From: Spironucleus salmonicida
Lineage: Eukaryota; Fornicata; Diplomonadida; Hexamitidae
DNA: 64,000 nucleotides
Assembly: GCA_000497125.2 (NCBI GenBank)
Contig: CM035317.1
Span: forward strand, 1,204,001-1,268,000
Direction: 5' to 3'
The position numbers and the translations under genes are program-made. Position 1 is the stretch's first letter. The number at the start of each line of letters is the position of its first letter. The notes below the pieces were generated by a model that was given only the letters and a program-made list of their open reading frames with translations, did no database searches and was not told the origin of the DNA. Positions 2,979 through 16,709 of this stretch are shown here, piece by piece.

Positions 2979-5900
2979 TCACTCCTGGCTTGCTAACATT
3001 TCAGCTTGTTCTACTCCCTCGCTAACATACATATCATAAACATTCTGACCTACACTTACGCTATTTTCGTCTAAAATCATTCCGTATTCTGTACTTTCAT
3101 CCATTTAAGCCTATGTACCGTCTTCCAAACCAAGTTCACACTCTTATTTAATAGGTGCAAATGCATTTTAGTTAACCTTTTTGAACTTAGTGATTGCTTA
3201 GACATTTTGCTGTGTTGGAGACATAATTCGTTACTTTCTTTACTAAGGAACAGCACTTAAGCTTGAAAAATCACTTGCCATAACATGATCATTTTCACCT
3301 TACATGATTCTCTCTTCAAACTCCAGATCAAACTGCTCTTTCTTGCTTTAGAAAGCTGGTTCATCAAATTACACGTTAGAAATATCACTAATACCAGAGT
3401 GTTTCTTATAATTATTAATAGTATACTCTTTCACCCCAGATTATTTAAACGCCTTTGGAATATTTAATTTTGTCTGAATTTCTACAGCTTTAATATCTGC
3501 ATAAGAGATTTATGAGTTAGCCTACATTGTTTAAATTGGAGCATCATTTTCATTAGTTATTACACTTTTCCTACTAATAGTTTACTGTTATTGCACATTA
3601 TAGTTGTCTGTTACTTCAGAAATACTCTTTTTTACTTTTTCAATTTTTGAAATATTGTATTCATCCTAGCTTTCCATTTCAATTCTCGTACTTTTCTAAA
3701 TCTCCTAAATTTCAAAATTAAATGTACTCTGACTGCTCTCGTTACTTATTTCATCAATATGAATTGTGTGTATACTTTACTATTTTTTGGCCAATTATGA
3801 ATAAATTTATGAAGATGGTTCTGTTTTTGGGGCTCTTGGAATTTACAAATTTGCTATTTAAATCTCATTTTCAATTCGTTTTTGTATACCTTTTGCCTCA
3901 CTTTTAGCAAACTCTTAAATTACTTCATAATTAATACTTTTTGCAAAGTTTGTAGCAATATGCACTGCATTTTATAGGTTTTCGTTTTTAATAACAGTAC
4001 AAACCTACGTCTCTATTTCCTTTTCAATTTCATTTGAAATTGGTGAAATTGGTTGCTTTAAGACAGTTTCTTCAAATAAACTTGAAGTTTCACTGTCATT
4101 TTTAGTTTAATTTAGTTATTGACATCCACTGCTGTACATATTTGCTGCAAATTTACTTCTAGGAGAAGATACTTTAATCAAAATTTATTATTCTGTTTCT
4201 TCTCGTAGCTCTTGTTTAATATAATTCTACAGAATGTGTTTTAATTCTTATTATTGTATAGCATCTGTATTTTATTAGATATTTTGAGTTGGATGAAGTG
4301 GGATTGAAATAGGCATTATGTTATTTGGATTTTCTAATTTTTCATAAGTATCAATTACTTAGAATTCAGTTTCTTTAAATTTATTCTATTAAATTATTGG
4401 GTAGCTGACGCGTTATTATTATTTAGAATGTTTTTATGTCTATTTAATTGGCGATTATGCAACTGGTGAGTTGTCAAACGAGAAATTTTCTTCTTACAAT
4501 TTTGCTATAATTTACTATACTGGTGTATTGGAAGAATGGTGACCTGTTTATTAGTAATTATTCATGAATAATTAGTCTTTGTTTTATTCAATTGCTTAAT
4601 TGTAGAGTTACTAATTTTACTAGTCAAAATCGCTATCAACAATGCATTCACCTTCATAAATTAGGTCAGTATTCTCTGCTTATTAACCACTGGTAGTTTC
4701 ATCGTTCAAAAACTCATTTGAAATATTATTTTATTATTGATTTTCCTCACCTTATTCAACAAAATCACTTCTAAGTTTATGTGAAGGTAAAAATTACAGA
4801 TCTTCAGAGTTGCAGTCAATTAATGGGGAACATATACTAGCTTTAGGAGAATTTAATTTTGGATGTGTGTAAATTTTCTATGATGGACTTTTGGGAGGTT
4901 CTATTATATTAAGTTCCATGAATAGTTATTATGTCTCAACGTTGTTAATGATTTCATCTTCAATAACCATTTTATTAGGCTAAATAATAGTTGTATGTGT
5001 TGGTATTCTACTGTCAATGGAGTTCGAATGTTAAAATTCTTGTTCTTATTGCTTCAGTTCCTATAATATAGTTAACATTTATTATTCATTTGTATTTTCA
5101 GTATGACAGTTAATTTCCTATATTTCATCTTAATGATTTTACCTAAGATTTTAGTTCCATTAAGTTTTTTATTCTATATCAGTAGTTTGCTAAATTTCTT
5201 AAATTATTTTCTTTGGAGTCTAAAGTTTTCTAGATGCTTTATTCAAAGATCTATCAACTGCTTCTTCTGGAGTAATTCTTAATTACTCAGGTATGGGTTA
5301 ATCTGAATGTGGAATGTTTAATTTATCTTTACTGGTTACTAATTCGTTAGACTTAGGGGAAGATTTCTTAGAGCTCATTTACGTCACTTTTTTATTATTT
5401 TCATCTACTATTTTGTCATTAATTTCCTAATTTATCATTTACTGTTTTTCCTATATAATATTAAATTATTTACTAACCTTCTCATCTTAAAACTGTGAAA
5501 GTTAGGAAATCTATTACTCTAGATCAAATGATTTATCTAAAGAATCCACATTTTTATTTGATTGTTGATTAGTTGACTAAGTAGATCGTAATTTTTGGAT
5601 TTCTTTCTAAAAATCAAAATTAACATTATTGACTGCCTGTTACTACCTTAAGATTTCAGCATTAGTTTATTCTACATGTTATTCCTTTTATTAGTGTTCT
5701 TTAACAACACGTAATTTAATGTCATCTAATCTCATACTGTGTTCTAAATCTAAAAACCTAATATTTCTATCTTCAAAGTAAATACCAGATTATGAAATTG
5801 ACTACTACATTTTTTCGCTGCGCTCTGCAGCCTTTTCAATATCCTAAATTTGTGATTCTAACTAATCTTTTTAATCTTTCCCAAAAAACTCTAGTTCATA

Positions 5901-6179
5901 CTTGAATTATTTTGCTTTCATTTCTTTGTTGATATTGAGAATTTCAGTTTGTATTTCTTTAACAGATCTTTTAGGTCCATCAGGTCTTAATTATTTAGGC
6001 TCAGTGACCTGTTCTTCTTCATCCATTGGTGCAATAATAGATGTTGACTATAATACTTCACTAAGGCGAAGAGATAGTAAATCATTTTGTTCTTTAAGTT
6101 AATGACGCTTATCAAAAACTTGATGATTAAGATTTGTGACATCTTAAGCTTACTTGAAGTGAGTTTTATAGATTGACAT
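2979..6179 (-). CDS. Gln-rich coiled-coil protein, 1066 aa
   Basis: A single frame runs from ATG at 6179 to TGA at 2979-2981 (1067 codons); a second TGA follows at once at 2976-2978 (GAG TGA TGA). Residues about 1-260 are charged heptad-rich coiled coil (EVLQST, KEIQTEIL, EKAAERSEKMQQ). The remainder is low-complexity, rich in Gln, Asn, Ser, Glu and Ile, with many Gln written TAA or TAG. No catalytic motif or membrane segment is visible. It could be a cytoskeletal or centrosomal scaffold, but that is a guess from composition only. Very AT-rich relative to the metabolic genes in the window. I do not recognise a family. Confidence 0.85.
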
Positions 6180-7758: not shown

Positions 7759-8751
7759 ATGAAAAACCTATCTGCTGATTTTGATTATTTGCTCACACAA
7801 ACATTCCGCCATCTAAAGCATCAAATTAAGAAGACACAGCTGTTTTTCTACGATCCATCGGCACCATTTGCAGTACCTGATGTCCCAAAATCGCCAATTT
7901 TTTAACTTTAGCCCCTGCTCGACAATGCGGAGATCTCGATAATAGAATTTCAAAAAACTATCTTAGAGATAAATAACAAGCTGAACCTGTTGAAAATCGA
8001 CCAGAAGTATATAAACCACAAAACAAATTCGGTTGAACAACATTCGTAAATTCACAAAAAACAACTCTCTGAAATCGACCATTTAGCAATGTAAAATTAG
8101 CAGCTTTTAGATCTAAAAAATGAAAATTATCGCACGAAACAGCTTTTTCCGCTGCCAAAAATCTAAAAAACTGAAGTACAACACAAGGACGTTTAGCGGC
8201 TCTAGATGCTTTTAAACGGCTTGTAAGAGTAGTTTACGAACCAAAGGATGGAAATTAACGCATTAAATGACGGGATTTTTGAGAAGCAAACGGAGCTGCA
8301 GTATCTGAAATTAGAGCTTGAGGAGCTTGAGGAGGAGGAAAGGAAGGTAGTTGTTAGGCCTGAAATCGAAAAATGCATTTAGTGTGTAGAAGTTGTTCCT
8401 CAGGAAGCTCAAACCAAGTAAATTCGGCACCCAAGTCCAACTAAATTTACACCGTTGAGCAAGAGCAAAAAGTATTTGACATTCGACTAAATCAAAAAAG
8501 AGGATATTCAGCTGGTGTAGAAGAAGATAATTTAACTGGGGATGTGAGTAAAAAAATCACTTTTTGACAGATTTGTATATTTCTAGGTAGCAGTCAATCT
8601 CTTATAGAAGGGAGTTAAGTGCTTGATTTACAGAAACTTGCCTAAAAGAGCGTGTCTGCAGCTTGTAACGTCTATAGTTAGTGTTGCAGAGGGTGATGAA
8701 ACTTTGTTTCTTTTTGTTAAAAAGGAGTTTTTTGGAATAATTTTAAGGTGA
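7759..8751 (+). CDS. Coiled-coil protein with a 27-nt intron, 321 aa
   Basis: Exon 1 runs from ATG at 7759 to 8543, exon 2 from 8571 to TGA at 8749-8751. Unspliced, the frame ends at TGA 8545-8547 after 262 residues. The region after that stop keeps a coding-like frame (VNLLQKGVKCLIYRNLPKRA) that joins exactly if the GT...AG segment 8544-8570 is removed. The protein has an N-terminal globular part, then a long coiled coil (EKQTELQYLKLELEELEEEE), then the spliced C-terminal tail. No family recognised. The shorter unspliced product is the alternative. Confidence 0.6.
8544..8570 (+). other. Candidate 27-nt spliceosomal intron
   Basis: It starts GTGAGTAAAA and ends CACTTTTTGACAG. The length is 27, so removal shifts the frame and bypasses the TGA at 8545-8547, extending the product by about 59 codons. 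The 3' end resembles those of two other candidates in this window (16884-16908 and 23341-23397), all with ACTT shortly before a terminal CAG. Fused branch point and acceptor sequences are known in Giardia and Trichomonas; the match here is inferred. Confidence 0.5.
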
Positions 8752-8989
8752 GATTTATGGCAGTTTATGTTTACTGATAGAGTTTTTTGTTTGTTATATA
8801 TAACAGGCCATAATTGTGCAGTTTTGCTGTTTATTATAAGTGGAATAAGAAGGTAAAAGCTAAGGTAAACACATTCTGAGTATATTTACTTTATTGCATA
8901 TACTATAAAGTACCTACTATTTATTGAAAACAGTGACTTGTTAAGTTTAGGTATTAAATATATAAATATTAAGATAATAATTGGTCAAA

Positions 8990-11900
8990 ATGGGTTGCGG
9001 TAATAATATGAAAAAGTTTGTTCCTGAATTGGAAAAGGAGGCAAGTGAAGAATAATAGTAAGATACTACATTAAGTACACTTGATTAAGTTTAACCTCAA
9101 GCAGTATAATTAAAATCTAAACCTAAATAAATCGATGCACTATATTAATAGCGATTAAGAGATTTTAAGCGTATTTCTTATTAAAATTAAAAGTTATACA
9201 GTTCTATAGATACAGATAAAAAATTTAAGGTTACCCCATCTGATATTAATAGATATTTTATTTCAATTAATGTAATGTTTGCACTATCATTAATATAAAG
9301 GTTCTTAGAGTTAACTGGATTTGACTCATATGGTCCTATAGAATTTTAATTTTTAATTACCGCTATTGATTATTTCAATAAATATACTAAGTTTTTATTA
9401 ATTATTGCTGATAATTCTGCTGTACGGACACCTAGGATTAAATAGATCATACAAAAAGGACCTGGAACAATGAGTATGATAGATTAACTTTTAGATAATA
9501 ATACTACAAATTTGTAACTACTGTCTTTATCAAAAGGTTTAGAAGATAAAGCCCCAGAATTTGATGATTTAATAAAGTAATTTTCAAAATTACATGAATA
9601 TCAGTAAATATAATTTATGAATATAGACATTAATGAAAATCTATATCTTAATATAGAATAGATATATGATTTTCTAGCTTAATAAGGATATAAAGGTAAA
9701 GACCATGATGTAAATATTTAATTCTATATTAAGTGTCCTACATATATTACACCATAAGATTTTTAAGGAATACTTAGCTCACCTAATTTCCCGATTAGAA
9801 ATCAGTAGTCATTGGAAGTTATACCATAAATAGAGAATCTTTAAAACTTAATTTAATAATTTAATGCATTAAGTCATGAGGAATAAGTTCTTTTTATGGA
9901 AGTTGATACACTTGACGAATTTTATGTGTTACCGATTTACGTATATAAGTATTTTATTACCAAACTTTAAAAGGACATGCATTTAAAGATAAAAACATTC
10001 TTCAGTTCTTTAACTTAAATTAGAGGAGATATTGATGGTTCTATAAGTAATCCTATAGGTCCGTTGGAATTTATATAGTTAGTTATTAAATTTAATAATA
10101 TTATTAATGTAGAGCTTAAAAAAGATTCACATCATTAAAAATTAGACGAATTTATCCCAGAATTTGATAGTTAAAAGGCAAAGAAATCAAACGACCTTGT
10201 GACGCTGCTCAAGGAATTTGGGAGACTGTCCGAGCAAATGCAGGAGATATTCGAAAAGATCGATCTCAACGAGGATTTCCTCCTATCACCAATTAACCTT
10301 TTCAATTGGATGAGGCAGAACGGTCTCGAGATGAAATTAGCCGAATACAATGGCTTCATCACCAAGTAGAGCCTTAACTCCGCTGGCCAGATCCGCCCGT
10401 CGGAGTTCGCGCAGATTCTAACTAAATTTGCGAACATGATACCGAATGTAAAGCTAACATCTCAGAAGACAGCCAAGCTCCAATAGTTTGCAGACGACTT
10501 CAGTGCCAACAAATCAAAGAAGAGCAACGACTTTGCAGTGCTGCTAAAGGAATTCGGTGCGCTTTCCCCAATGGTCTAAACAATCTTTGAAACTATAGAC
10601 GATAGGGAAGAATTCCTCATAGCCCCCCTTAGTCTGTATAACTGGATGAAGTCTAATGGTCTGAAGATGAAGCTAGGAGAGTACAACATGTACATTGACA
10701 AAAAGAACCTTAATGTAAACAACCAGATCCGTCCCAGCGAGTTCGTTGAAATTCTTTATACCTTCCAAAAAGAGCTAGTCAAAGTCAACCTTCCTCCTCT
10801 CGTTGAAGAATCAAAACTTAACGATATGGCTTTGATGATTGGTGGAGAAAGAATGCGGAAATCAAACGACCTTGCGACGCTGCTCAAGGAATTTGGGAGA
10901 CTGTCCGAGCAAATGCAGGAGATATTCGAAAAGATCGATCTCAACGAGGATTTCCTCCTATCACCAATTAACCTTTTCAATTGGATGAGGCAGAACGGTC
11001 TCGAGATGAAATTAGCCGAATACAATGGCTTCATCACCAAGTAGAGCCTTAACTCCGCTGGCCAGATCCGCCCGTCGGAGTTCGCGCAGATTCTAACTAA
11101 ATTTGCGAACATGATACCGAATGTAAAGCTAACATCTCAGAAGACAGCCAAGCTCCAATAGTTTGCAGACGACTTCAGTGCCAACAAATCAAAGAAGAGC
11201 AACGACTTTGCAGTGCTGCTAAAGGAATTCGGTGCGCTTTCCCCAATGGTCTAAACAATCTTTGAAACTATAGACGATAGGGAAGAATTCCTCATAGCCC
11301 CCCTTAGTCTGTATAACTGGATGAAGTCTAATGGTCTGAAGATGAAGCTAGGAGAGTACAACATGTACATTGACAAAAAGAACCTTAATGTAAACAACCA
11401 GATCCGTCCCAGCGAGTTCGTTGAAATTCTTTATACCTTCCAAAAAGAGCTAGTCAAAGTCAACCTTCCTCCTCTCGTTGAAGAATCAAAACTTAACGAT
11501 ATGGCTTTGATGATTGGTGGAGAAAGAATGCGGAAATCAAACGACCTTGCGACGCTGCTCAAGGAATTTGGGAGACTGTCCGAGCAAATGCAGGAGATAT
11601 TCGAAAAGATCGATCTCAACGAGGATTTCCTCCTATCACCAATTAACCTTTTCAATTGGATGAGGCAGAACGGTCTCGAGATGAAATTAACCGAATACAA
11701 TGGCTTCATCACCAAGTAGAGCCTTAACTCCGCTGGCCAGATCCGCCCGTCGGAGTTCGCGCAGATTCTAACTAAATTTGCGAACATGATACCGAATGTA
11801 AAGCTAACATCTCAGAAGACAGCCAAGCTCCAATAGTTTGCAGACGACTTCAGTGCCAACAAATCAAAGAAGAGCAACGACTTTGCAGTGCTGCTAAAGG

Positions 11901-13825
11901 AATTCGGTGCGCTTTCCCCAATGGTCTAAACAATCTTTGAAACTATAGACGATAGGGAAGAATTCCTCATAGCCCCCCTTAGTCTGTATAACTGGATGAA
12001 GTCTAATGGTCTGAAGATGAAGCTAGGAGAGTACAACATGTACATTGACAAAAAGAACCTTAATGTAAACAACCAGATCCGTCCCAGCGAGTTCGTTGAA
12101 ATTCTTTATACCTTCCAAAAAGAGCTAGTCAAAGTCAACCTTCCTCCTCTCGTTGAAGAATCAAAACTTAACGATATGGCTTTGATGATTGGTGGAGAAA
12201 GAATGCGGAAATCAAACGACCTTGCGACGCTGCTCAAGGAATTTGGGAGACTGTCCGAGCAAATGCAGGAGATATTCGAAAAGATCGATCTCAACGAGGA
12301 TTTCCTCCTATCACCAATTAACCTTTTCAATTGGATGAGGCAGAACGGTCTCGAGATGAAATTAACCGAATACAATGGCTTCATCACCAAGTAGAGCCTT
12401 AACTCCGCTGGCCAGATCCGCCCGTCGGAGTTCGCGCAGATTCTAACTAAATTTGCGAACATGATACCGAATGTAAAGCTAACATCTCAGAAGACAGCCA
12501 AGCTCCAATAGTTTGCAGACGACTTCAGTGCCAACAAATCAAAGAAGAGCAACGACTTTGCAGTGCTGCTAAAGGAATTCGGTGCGCTTTCCCCAATGGT
12601 CTAAACAATCTTTGAAACTATAGACGATAGGGAAGAATTCCTCATAGCCCCCCTTAGTCTGTATAACTGGATGAAGTCTAATGGTCTGAAGATGAAGCTA
12701 GGAGAGTACAACATGTACATTGACAAAAAGAACCTTAATGTAAACAACCAGATCCGTCCCAGCGAGTTCGTTGAAATTCTTTATACCTTCCAAAAAGAGC
12801 TAGTCAAAGTCAACCTTCCTCCTCTCGTTGAAGAATCAAAACTTAACGATATGGCTTTGATGATTGGTGGAGAAAGAATGCGGAAATCAAACGACCTTGC
12901 GACGCTGCTCAAGGAATTTGGGAGACTGTCCGAGCAAATGCAGGAGATATTCGAAAAGATCGATCTCAACGAGGATTTCCTCCTATCACCAATTAACCTT
13001 TTCAATTGGATGAGGCAGAACGGTCTCGAGATGAAATTAGCCGAATACAATGGCTTCATCACCAAGTAGAGCCTTAACTCCGCTGGCCAGATCCGCCCGT
13101 CGGAGTTCGCGCAGATTCTAACTAAATTTGCGAACATGATACCGAATGTAAAGCTAACATCTCAGAAGACAGCCAAGCTCCAATAGTTTGCAGACGACTT
13201 CAGTGCCAACAAATCAAAGAAGAGCAACGACTTTGCAGTGCTGCTAAAGGAATTCGGTGCGCTTTCCCCAATGGTCTAAACAATCTTTGAAACTATAGAC
13301 GATAGGGAAGAATTCCTCATAGCCCCCCTTAGTCTGTATAACTGGATGAAGTCTAATGGTCTGAAGATGAAGCTAGGAGAGTACAACATGTACATTGACA
13401 AAAAGAACCTTAATGTAAACAACCAGATCCGTCCCAGCGAGTTCGTTGAAATTCTTTATACCTTCCAAAAAGAGCTAGTCAAAGTCAACCTTCCTCCTCT
13501 CGTTGAAGAATCAAAACTTAACGATATGGCTTTGATGATTGGTGGAGAAAGAATGCGGAAATCAAACGACCTTGCGACGCTGCTCAAGGAATTTGGGAGA
13601 CTGTCCGAGCAAATGCAGGAGATATTCGAAAAGATCGATCTCAACGAGGATTTCCTCCTATCACCAATTAACCTTTTCAATTGGATGAGGCAGAACGGTC
13701 TCGAGATGAAATTAACCGAATACAATGGCTTCATCACCAAGTAGAGCCTTAACTCCGCTGGCCAGATCCGCCCGTCGGAGTTCGCGCAGATCCTAGATTA
13801 GCTAAAAGTTACTATCCCATTGTGA
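8990..13825 (+). CDS. Giant tandem-repeat protein with EF-hand-like modules, 1611 aa
   Basis: One uninterrupted frame from ATG at 8990 to TGA at 13823-13825 (1612 codons). The N-terminus MGCGNN fits N-myristoylation plus palmitoylation, so membrane attachment is likely. Residues about 1-398 are AT-rich, UAR-rich and contain divergent copies of the later module. Residues about 399-1600 are 5.3 near-identical 225-residue repeats. Each repeat holds two related modules of about 112 residues, and each module has two EF-hand-like helix-loop-helix units. Loops are DLNEDFLLSPIN and N-L-N-V-N-N-Q-I-R-P-S-E, in which several calcium ligands are lost. The last repeat is cut off and followed by 11 other residues. 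A calcium-responsive or structural membrane-cytoskeleton protein is plausible but unproven. Confidence 0.9.
10184..13790 (+). repeat. In-frame 675-bp tandem repeat array, 5.3 copies
   Basis: Units start at 10184, 10859, 11534, 12209, 12884 and 13559; the sixth is cut at about 13790. The period is exactly 675 bp (225 codons). Copies differ at very few sites: one codon at about residue 52 of the unit alternates Ala/Thr in the order A, A, T, T, A, T, and the first copy has GTG instead of GCG near its start. Such identity including third positions implies recent expansion or gene conversion. The array is far richer in GC than the first 1.2 kb of the same gene. Copy number in an assembly could be collapsed. 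Confidence 0.97.
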
Positions 13826-13987: not shown

Positions 13988-15097
13988 ATGCAAGAAACAT
14001 CAAAAATCGCATGGGCAACACTCTAAGATGTCAAGCATCATTTTTAAGATGCCTAACCAGATTTTATCTTGAAAATAACTACTCTAGAACAATGCTTGAG
14101 AAAGCTTTATGAATTCTTTTTAGAATCGTAACCTTCAGAGGCTCCATTGCTCTAGAAAGCTCTTGATAGTGCATTATAGCGTACAATTTCTCTAGAATAA
14201 CGAGTTTTAGAAGCAGAACGTATCTCTTAGTCATCTTCCGAGTAAATTAACTCAGAACGTCAGAAAAATACTAATTATATAAATTAAATCTAAAATTTAA
14301 AATCAAAAACCATCCCGTAACTTGAAGAAATATGTTCTTAAAACGCGAATTCTGCGCGTTAATGGAAATAAAAATGCGCTGAATTAGAAGCATAAATTAT
14401 CAATTTGAATACGAATTAGAATGGAAAATTAAATTCAATTTACACTGAAATGAAACGATTTTAGTAAATCATAAATGAGCAAAAAAGTTAAATAGAAATG
14501 AAAAATTAAAACTTAATTGATCTGTAAAAATCGGTATAAAACGGCGAAAAAAGACTTATAAAAGCTGTAAACGAAACACAAAATGCCAGCAGCTCAATTA
14601 TTCAGAAACTGTAGTTTGAAATTGCAACTTTGTAGTCTTAAATGCACAGTATGGGATAGTAAGCGATTTAGAGGTAGAATGATGAAAATTAGCGAATTTT
14701 GGAGGCACAGATTGCTTCGAAGCTAATTGAGAGCGGAAAAGATAATTAAATGCTTTTCCCTTAAAAAATAATGATGGGCAATGCTTAGAATGGAGAAAAC
14801 AGTAAGTAAAGTACTGGAATAGCATCACAACACAGCCAAAATATCTCAAACCCTGCTAAATCTAGTCAACTAAATGCTTCTTTAACATAGCTAGAAAGCT
14901 CGAACTAACCCGATATTTCCACATCTTTCATTGATGAAATCAATGTTGCGATGCGGAAGATGCGATCTGAACAGGTTTTCATGCAACAGCAACCTATTTA
15001 GAGAGGAAGTGCGGTGGTAGATTTAGGGCTTCAGCGGATAAATGAAAGACTGCGAAAGCTCGGTGGAAAAACCGTGTTTGAGGAGAGTGAGTTTTGA
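13988..15097 (+). CDS. Coiled-coil protein, 369 aa
   Basis: ATG at 13988 to TGA at 15095-15097, 370 codons. The N-terminal 60 residues look globular-helical (ITTLEQCLRKLYEFFLES). Residues 65-235 are a long coiled coil with many TAA/TAG glutamines. A Ser/Asn/Gln-rich linker follows, then a short basic helical C-terminus (LQRINERLRKLGGKTVFEES). An AT element (TATTATATCTTAATATTAA) lies 30-50 nt upstream. No family recognised; scaffold or cytoskeletal roles are possible from shape alone. Confidence 0.85.
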
Positions 15098-15649: not shown

Positions 15650-16054
15650 TCACTTCTCACCCTTTTGGCTAGCTCTTAATTGTTAAAAGTACTCTTTTGC
15701 ACTCAAATTAAGTAATTTTTCGTTATAAACACCACATTCTCCAGAATTCACAATATTGACGTCTTTTAATAATTTACTTAAAAACTCGTCTTTTCTGATC
15801 GTTTAATTCAAAACCTATGGAGTAACACGTTTAGTTTTTGTGCGTTTTACAGCTTCTGCGCTAAGGTCCAAAACTTCGGTGACCAAAAATTCGAGAGCAG
15901 CAGAAACATATATAGCAGCAGTATTTGATACACGACCTACTCTAAGCTTCGACGATGTTGTGCGACATTTTAATGCACGTTATTTAAGGAGACGGTGAAC
16001 ACGACCAACTGGGAAGGTTAACCCTGATTTTTCTGAACGGGTAGTATTTGCCAT
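15650..16054 (-). CDS. H2A: Histone H2A, divergent
   Basis: 134 residues from ATG at 16054 to TGA at 15650-15652. It matches the H2A fold: tail with TTRSEKSGL, then FPVGRVHRLLK (usual FPVGRIHRLLR), TAAIYVSAALEFLVTEVLDL (usual APVYLAAVLEYLTAEILEL), KRVTPQVLNQTIRKDEFL and KLLKDVNI. Differences: about nine extra residues between the first two helices (KCRTTSSKL), the usual GN(Y/F) loop absent, Glu92 of the acidic patch replaced by Phe, and a C-terminal tail without the usual H2A or H2A.Z sequence. DNA packaging in the nucleus is expected. Gln in LLKQRA and TPQ is written with TAR codons. Could be a variant rather than the main H2A. Confidence 0.9.
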
Positions 16055-16709
16055 TTAGAATATTGGAAAGGACAAAATTTTAACTAATTTATGTATAATA
16101 TATAAATAAATTGGAAACTATGGATTAATTTTAACTATCAACTCTAATTAGTACACGACTGAGTAGAAGTAATATAGTATTGTAGAGTAAATTTGATATT
16201 AATAATATAACCTGCAAGAATTTCTAAGCGTTTTGTTATGCCTAGGATAATTACTCCACTAGTAGTTATATTAAAATAAGTATACGATTTAGCATCTATA
16301 TTACATCATAAATGAATCCAACAATTATCTCACAAAATATTTGTTAAAACATGACCCATGAAGCTGAAAATATGAGCAATATATTGCTATAATACTAGTA
16401 TAATACCTCCTTATTTTCATCTCATTAAATCTTAAAATTATATTCTATTAAACAATCTTATTTATTGGAGTATTTTTGAATAGACTTAAATTTCTATATA
16501 CATTTACAGGCTTACTATACAATATTTTTTCTGAACAATTTTCACACTATTATATATTAAACATTATATTAAAATAGAAATTATAATTTCTATCTAAAGA
16601 CCATTTACTCAAAATTCTAAATTAATACGTATAAAAGCAAGTACATGAAAAATTACACAATACACTAGTATTATATTAAGCTTATTGAAATACTTATGAC
16701 ATCAACAAA
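16055..16709. other. Divergent intergenic region
   Basis: About 655 bp between H2A (-) and the next + gene. AT-rich, with TATATTATACATAA just upstream of H2A and AATACACTAGTATTATATTAAG upstream of the + gene being likely promoter-proximal AT elements. No RNA gene seen. Confidence 0.5.

Follow-up and report, generated by a model that had tools for sequence, protein, structure and literature searches.

How does a single gene come to hold the same 225 codons several times over, almost letter for letter, and what do these repeats encode? The gene lies in a 64,000-nucleotide stretch of the Spironucleus salmonicida genome (assembly GCA_000497125.2, contig CM035317.1, positions 1,204,001 to 1,268,000; hereafter the window, in which the gene's coordinates are counted). 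An initial annotation had read the repeats as degenerate EF-hand-like modules, without a described family, in a membrane-tethered elastic or calcium-tuned filament. Our analysis reveals a nested, recently expanded tandem array with a step in base composition at its edge, and lends weak support to an EF-hand ancestry of its modules, with a structural role more likely than a calcium-sensing one.

A recent in-frame tandem array

Read in NCBI code table 6, in which TAA and TAG encode glutamine, positions 8990–13825 of the forward strand form a single open reading frame (ORF) of 1611 codons that stops at TGA. At a lag of 675 bp, the sequence matches itself from 10183/10184 to 13791, a run of 3608 bases; with a unit length of exactly 225 codons, this makes 5.35 in-frame copies. 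Any two copies, counting the five complete ones and the partial one of 233 bases, differ by 0, 1 or 2 bases, and just two sites vary among them, both altering the amino acid: GTG/GCG places valine in copy 1 and alanine in all others, while GCC/ACC reads Ala, Ala, Thr, Thr, Ala, Thr across copies 1–6. Copy 2 is identical to copy 5, and copy 3 to copies 4 and 6 (over the length of copy 6). Silent differences are absent up to 13791; one (ATT/ATC) stands at 13792, right at the end of the last copy. The limits, the 225-codon unit, the copy number of about 5.3 and the 398-residue N-terminal part initially annotated are all correct in the assembly sequence, as is the remark that silent changes between copies are nearly missing; the recent expansion it proposed is supported by this near-identity.

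The alternation of alanine and threonine along the array points to unequal exchange or conversion, being hard to obtain by duplicating units one by one at an end, and we infer that the array lengthened recently by unequal exchange or gene conversion between its units. No second copy of the gene was found among the best-scoring candidates in the 14.47-Mb assembly at an expect value (E) of 1 or lower. Proteins with near-identical long repeats are a known kind; the open-licence literature listings contained nothing pertinent on near-identical giant repeats or on biased conversion among the tandem repeats of protists. Assembly may merge or multiply such similar repeats, and polishing may even out the differences between them, so that the copy number or uniformity of the array could be an artefact. 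We regard this as very unlikely, given that the frame stays open through all copies and that, if this is the published assembly, its PacBio reads have an N50 of 14.6 kb at 161x (PMC9509377), four times the array length and longer than the whole gene.

The repetition is nested. Each unit consists of two modules, A and B, with 56% protein identity over 91 residues and 58% DNA identity over 273 nt; because the DNA is just 58% identical beside 56% for the protein, the silent sites have turned over, which makes the A/B duplication old, in line with the initial view of the unit as an older duplication of a module of about 112 residues. The diverged copies that it placed in the first 398 residues are likewise borne out: residues 187–387 match one unit in blastp (E = 1.5e-14), and identity to module A amounts to 28% for N3, 25% for N2 and, more weakly, 23% for N1 (E = 1.2e-5), these E-values being optimistic because they come from a four-sequence set with composition correction off. 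The protein contains about 14 modules: three at the N-terminus, six of type A, the last one truncated, and five of type B.

Base composition at the array edge

The sharper interest of this locus is genomic, since, within one reading frame, GC content is 25.0% in the N-terminal part but 43.6% in the array. For GC at third codon positions (GC3) over codons 1–623, the best single change-point falls after codon 395, with splits at 392–401 lying within 2 log-likelihood units, next to codon 399 where the array begins; its likelihood ratio is 102.5, against a maximum of 17.6 in 500 permutations. From the N-terminal part to the array, GC at the first, second and third positions rises from 0.33/0.24/0.18 to 0.47/0.27/0.56 and GC at fourfold sites from 10/107 to 40/85, while TAA/TAG (TAR) codons fall from 36 of 40 glutamine codons to 3 of 12 (for the array, a single unit was counted, which avoids scoring its copies repeatedly). 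Across 129 sampled frames of at least 200 codons, TAR use declines from 81% in the lowest GC3 bin to 25% in the highest, and the two parts of the gene therefore resemble two different gene classes. Duplicated regions of S. salmonicida average 44.7% GC, against 30.7% elsewhere (PMC9509377), and the array looks like the same duplicated-region effect inside one gene.

GC-biased gene conversion among the units might have raised GC, most at third positions, and removed most of the TAA/TAG glutamine codons; we offer this as a tentative explanation that is possible rather than probable. It provides a good but unproven account of why the single-copy first 398 codons stayed AT-rich. The main alternative is the insertion of a copy that was already GC-rich. 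Translational selection, which we put second, has against it that both parts belong to one reading frame; more generally, expression level and other gene-wide causes fit poorly, because the two parts share promoter, chromosomal place and translation.

Comparison with other loci cuts both ways. With a largest GC3 split difference of 0.38, this ORF (taken from the ATG at 8696) ranks fifth among 38 sampled ORFs of at least 500 codons, and the four with larger splits (0.58, 0.55, -0.42 and -0.41) contain no tandem repeats of period 60–1500; steep GC changes occur without arrays, which weakens the case for conversion. Judged by their translations, two of the four (L047 and L039) look like frames running into non-genic or overlapping sequence, and the leucine-rich L032, perhaps with L040, looks like a real mosaic gene. 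In favour of conversion, the two other tandem arrays found in 20 sampled loci (L031 and L045) are also GC-rich, a number too small to settle the matter, but the 0.9 kb beside the L045 array also has 67.3% GC. The contrast within one frame makes copy-to-copy conversion directly testable and, if it holds, duplication itself would be altering how this diplomonad uses the codons of its modified genetic code, with a sharp transition at the array edge.

These loci have features of their own. The leucine-rich frame (L032, 5863–8436) has no tandem DNA repeats, and its GC3 climbs from about 0.2 to 0.78–0.79 over the final 160 codons. In L031 (contig C1), a 66-bp tandem repeat at 8439–8989 is open in frames on both strands and has 67.5% GC against 31.2% in the rest of the locus. 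L045 (911–10000; contig C5, about 700,911–710,000) is a satellite-like array of near-identical copies of a 1193-bp unit with 68.2% GC, where the genome as a whole has about one third, and it matched no Rfam family at gathering score.

Degenerate EF-hand pairs and the question of calcium

A single unit matches the Pfam family EF-hand_7 (PF13499) with E = 2.6e-4 over positions 2–66 of the 67-position profile, and its best match to a non-EF family has E = 0.038. Against PDB sequences, it matches best to CML18, a calcium-binding protein (E = 3.3e-4), and of its 14 matches with E no higher than 10, 10 bear the names of EF-hand proteins; a profile of five modules finds only EF-hand proteins among the best 60 of 96 PDB matches (top E = 0.0058). 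Folded alone, module A gives a model with a mean predicted local distance difference test (pLDDT) score of 67, block means of 76–88 over residues 31–90, and helices at 17–23, 36–45, 52–61 and 72–85. DSSP assigns beta bridges to residues 34 and 70, which are position 8 of loops A.1 and A.2, the position at which true EF-hand pairs bridge. Nearly all of the best 50 Foldseek and best 50 VIA-align matches to this model are EF-hand proteins; some of the profile (60 of 96) and fold-search matches we presume to be so, the rest being assigned by name or title.

Several points weigh against this assignment. The single-unit EF-hand_7 score of 21.7 bits lies under the curated cut-off of 30, the EF-hand matches in the fold searches have low significance, the first helix and the start of loop 1 (residues 18–28) fall below a pLDDT of 50, and the remaining 4 of the 14 PDB matches are designed armadillo repeats, aligned over another part of the unit. 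The sub-threshold scores, low fold significance and armadillo matches would also suit modules that are some other helical repeat, in which the EF-hand match arose by chance, helped by Asp-rich and PSEF motifs. We judge this rather improbable, for separate methods converge on one set of residues and each of the two loops has its predicted beta bridge at position 8. Two helix-loop-helix hands, forming one pair, are present in the module A model at medium confidence, so that structure prediction leaves the EF-hand reading standing; taken with the Pfam, PDB and profile matches, it gives supported but weak grounds for the array modules being degenerate EF-hand pairs, with the single unit falling short of the family threshold.

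Module A shares with the EF-hand pair superfamily (PF13499) two helix-loop-helix hands, 12-residue loops and a hydrophobic position 8 with a predicted bridge. The array modules differ from it in their sub-cut-off single-unit score, in the loss of most calcium ligands, and in a length of 112–113 residues, to which the model gives a further helix at either end. The far stronger whole-protein EF-hand_7 score (E = 7.3e-20, 71.5 bits) was discarded as evidence: repeats sum up weak scores, and the unrelated LPD39 and PuR_N likewise reach 1e-12 and 1e-11, with unrelated families also exceeding their own Pfam cut-offs. A four-module model (450 residues, two alignment rows) had a mean pLDDT of 43.7 and a predicted template modelling score of 0.21, and no conclusion about a rod was drawn from it.

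The loops speak less for calcium than for the fold. All ten loops examined, over five distinct modules, were chosen by eye, the second loops of N1–N3 being the least certain. At loop positions 1, 3, 5 and 12, A.1 has D, N, D, N; A.2 has S, N, A, E; B.1 has D, R, E, S; and B.2 has N, N, N, E. Asp1 together with Asp or Glu at 12 occurs in none of the four array-unit loops and in 2 of the 10, Gly at position 6 in 1 of the 10, and the N-terminal module loops are mostly incomplete too. Many true EF-hands also lack the full set of calcium ligands, and such loss bears on calcium rather than on fold. With the pairing of Asp1 and an acidic residue 12 absent from every array loop, the EF-hand fold more likely serves a structural purpose here than calcium sensing, and the calcium tuning initially proposed is weakened. 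In a membrane-tethered elastic filament, calcium on many loops would alter the length or stiffness of a rod; EF-hand ancestry would fit this, as would B.2, whose Asn at 1, 3 and 5 with Glu12 makes weak calcium binding possible, and the second loop of N3 (Asp1, Ser3, Ser5, Glu12; anchored by hand). With Asp1 and Glu/Asp12 missing together from every array-unit loop and Gly6 so rare, such a filament appears improbable.

Relatives, membrane anchor and a proposed scaffold

Searched within the full protein against about 5.8 billion proteins, residues 1–640 found one match (P0001) among 7816 candidates; residues 178–623 alone matched none of 4142 candidates, and residues 399–735 within the full protein none of 7200. 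The initial statement that no described family has this unit agrees with the absence of a close homologue from the protein database used; that database, which is perhaps poor in diplomonad proteins translated in the right code, so that missing matches count for little, contained no relative but P0001, and other diplomonad genomes were not searched. P0001 (1837 residues) is likewise one protein of many tandem EF-hand pairs; its alignment covers 30% of the 640-residue query at 22% identity (E = 2.1e-8). Unlike our protein, it has canonical hands (EF-hand_7 in 23 stretches, E = 3.3e-295) and units that are not near-identical, and what the two share is probably no more than the general EF-hand pattern. 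Among open-licence papers on S. salmonicida or diplomonad EF-hand repeats, titles and abstract openings named no such protein, and the main text of the 2014 genome paper does not contain the term 'EF-hand'.

The inferred protein start is MGCGNNMKK at 8990, where a TATATA motif 31 bases upstream and an A-run (AAA) preceding the ATG argue for initiation; TATA-like and A-run start features of this kind have been described for S. salmonicida (PMC3916229). The Met-Gly-Cys N-terminus, with lysines at 8–9, makes myristoylation and palmitoylation plausible. Two further points count against this part of the reading: Asn at position 6 is less favoured for N-terminal acylation, and the frame remains open 5' of the proposed start up to an ATG at 8696, an openness that is common where the code has just one stop codon.

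EF-hands behind an N-terminal Gly2-Cys3 recall calflagin/FCaBP; in trypanosomatid calflagins, Gly2 is myristoylated and Cys3 palmitoylated, and this double acylation is reported to be crucial for flagellar location (PMC10939215). Calflagin/FCaBP differ in having just four EF-hands, which bind calcium. The FCaBP model PF22592 was not among the 25 listed of 30 families for the whole protein or the 12 for one unit, and calflagin was not among the matches listed in the Pfam or PDB searches, lists that do not exclude calflagin or EFCAB6. The likeness would be a functional analogy at most.

We propose, with evenly divided confidence, a lineage-specific membrane-held scaffold of about 187 kDa, built of degenerate EF-hand pairs in an array maintained by exchange or conversion. 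Its modules, three old ones followed by A-B five times and a cut A, would act not as calcium switches but as compact binding beads strung along an extended scaffold, their loops having mostly lost calcium ligands. A probably acylated N-terminus would tether the protein by one end to a membrane near the microtubule skeleton, for which the plasma membrane and the flagellar membrane are plausible candidates, and the array would extend inward and present many equal binding sites, linking membrane to cytoskeleton. Unequal exchange and gene conversion between units would let the array grow, shrink and stay uniform, and would set its length.

A different structural use is conceivable in an axonemal or microtubule array in which the modules make contacts along the lattice, as in EFCAB6 of mammalian doublet microtubules, an inner-junction protein that is likewise structural and carries several EF-hand motifs (PMC8595878) and shows 16-nm periodicity in mouse sperm (PMC10663601). 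Diplomonads have eight motile flagella (PMC4931700), and the profile matches include the axonemal proteins DC3 (E 0.09) and radial spoke protein 7 (E 0.12). We nevertheless find this placement unlikely, since EFCAB6 is not among the 14 PDB matches of the unit or the best 60 of 96 profile matches, and an acylated N-terminus would suit a membrane and not a tubule lumen. To our knowledge, EFCAB6 has no membrane anchor. Proteins of many EF-hand pairs are already a known kind; combined with near-identical repeats, degraded calcium loops and an N-terminus that is a candidate for acylation, as in the scaffold proposed here, they would form a scaffold of a new kind, found in a parasite of fish.

Table 1. 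Features of the repeat gene, in window coordinates
Feature	Position	Strand	Basis and remarks
Whole gene	8990..13825	+	1611 codons + TGA stop, code table 6; ~187 kDa, isoelectric point 5.6
Candidate TATA box TATATA	8959..8964	+	31 bases 5' of proposed ATG
N-terminus MGCGNNMKK	8990..9016	+	Sequence; candidate N-myristoyl (Gly2) and S-palmitoyl (Cys3) site
Diverged module N1, residues 41-177	9110..9520	+	Sequence comparison; limits approximate
Diverged module N2, residues 178-281	9521..9832	+	Sequence comparison; limits approximate
Diverged module N3, residues 282-398	9833..10183	+	Sequence comparison; 28% identical to A
Tandem array, 5.35 copies of 675-bp unit	10184..13791	+	GC 43.6% vs 25.0% in N-terminal part
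Module A of unit 1, 112 residues	10184..10519	+	Pfam, model; EF-hand pair at unit residues 17-79
EF-like loop A.1 DLNEDFLLSPIN	10262..10297	+	Picked by eye; model bridge at loop position 8
EF-like loop A.2 SLNSAGQIRPSE	10370..10405	+	Picked by eye; model bridge at loop position 8
Module B of unit 1, 113 residues	10520..10858	+	Sequence comparison
EF-like loop B.1 DDREEFLIAPLS	10598..10633	+	Picked by eye
EF-like loop B.2 NLNVNNQIRPSE	10706..10741	+	Picked by eye
Unit 2	10859..11533	+	Lag match and copy comparison
Unit 3	11534..12208	+	Lag match and copy comparison
Unit 4	12209..12883	+	Lag match and copy comparison
Unit 5	12884..13558	+	Lag match and copy comparison
Partial unit 6	13559..13791	+	Lag match, model; module A to ~residue 79, within last EF-hand-pair helix
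Unique C-terminal tail DQLKVTIPL	13796..13822	+	Sequence

Among the surrounding genes, those at 7759–8547, 13988–15097 and 2979–6179 had no Pfam match at E of 0.001 or lower. A core-histone-like frame lies on the reverse strand at 15653–16108 (Pfam Histone, E = 9.2e-7). Elsewhere in the assembly, which has four exact matches to a published 35-base S. salmonicida primer stretch (PMC3916229), a published primer for a cysteine-rich protein matches four times on contig C2 (466112–475210) at a spacing of 3021–3022 bp, which suggests a tandem gene array.

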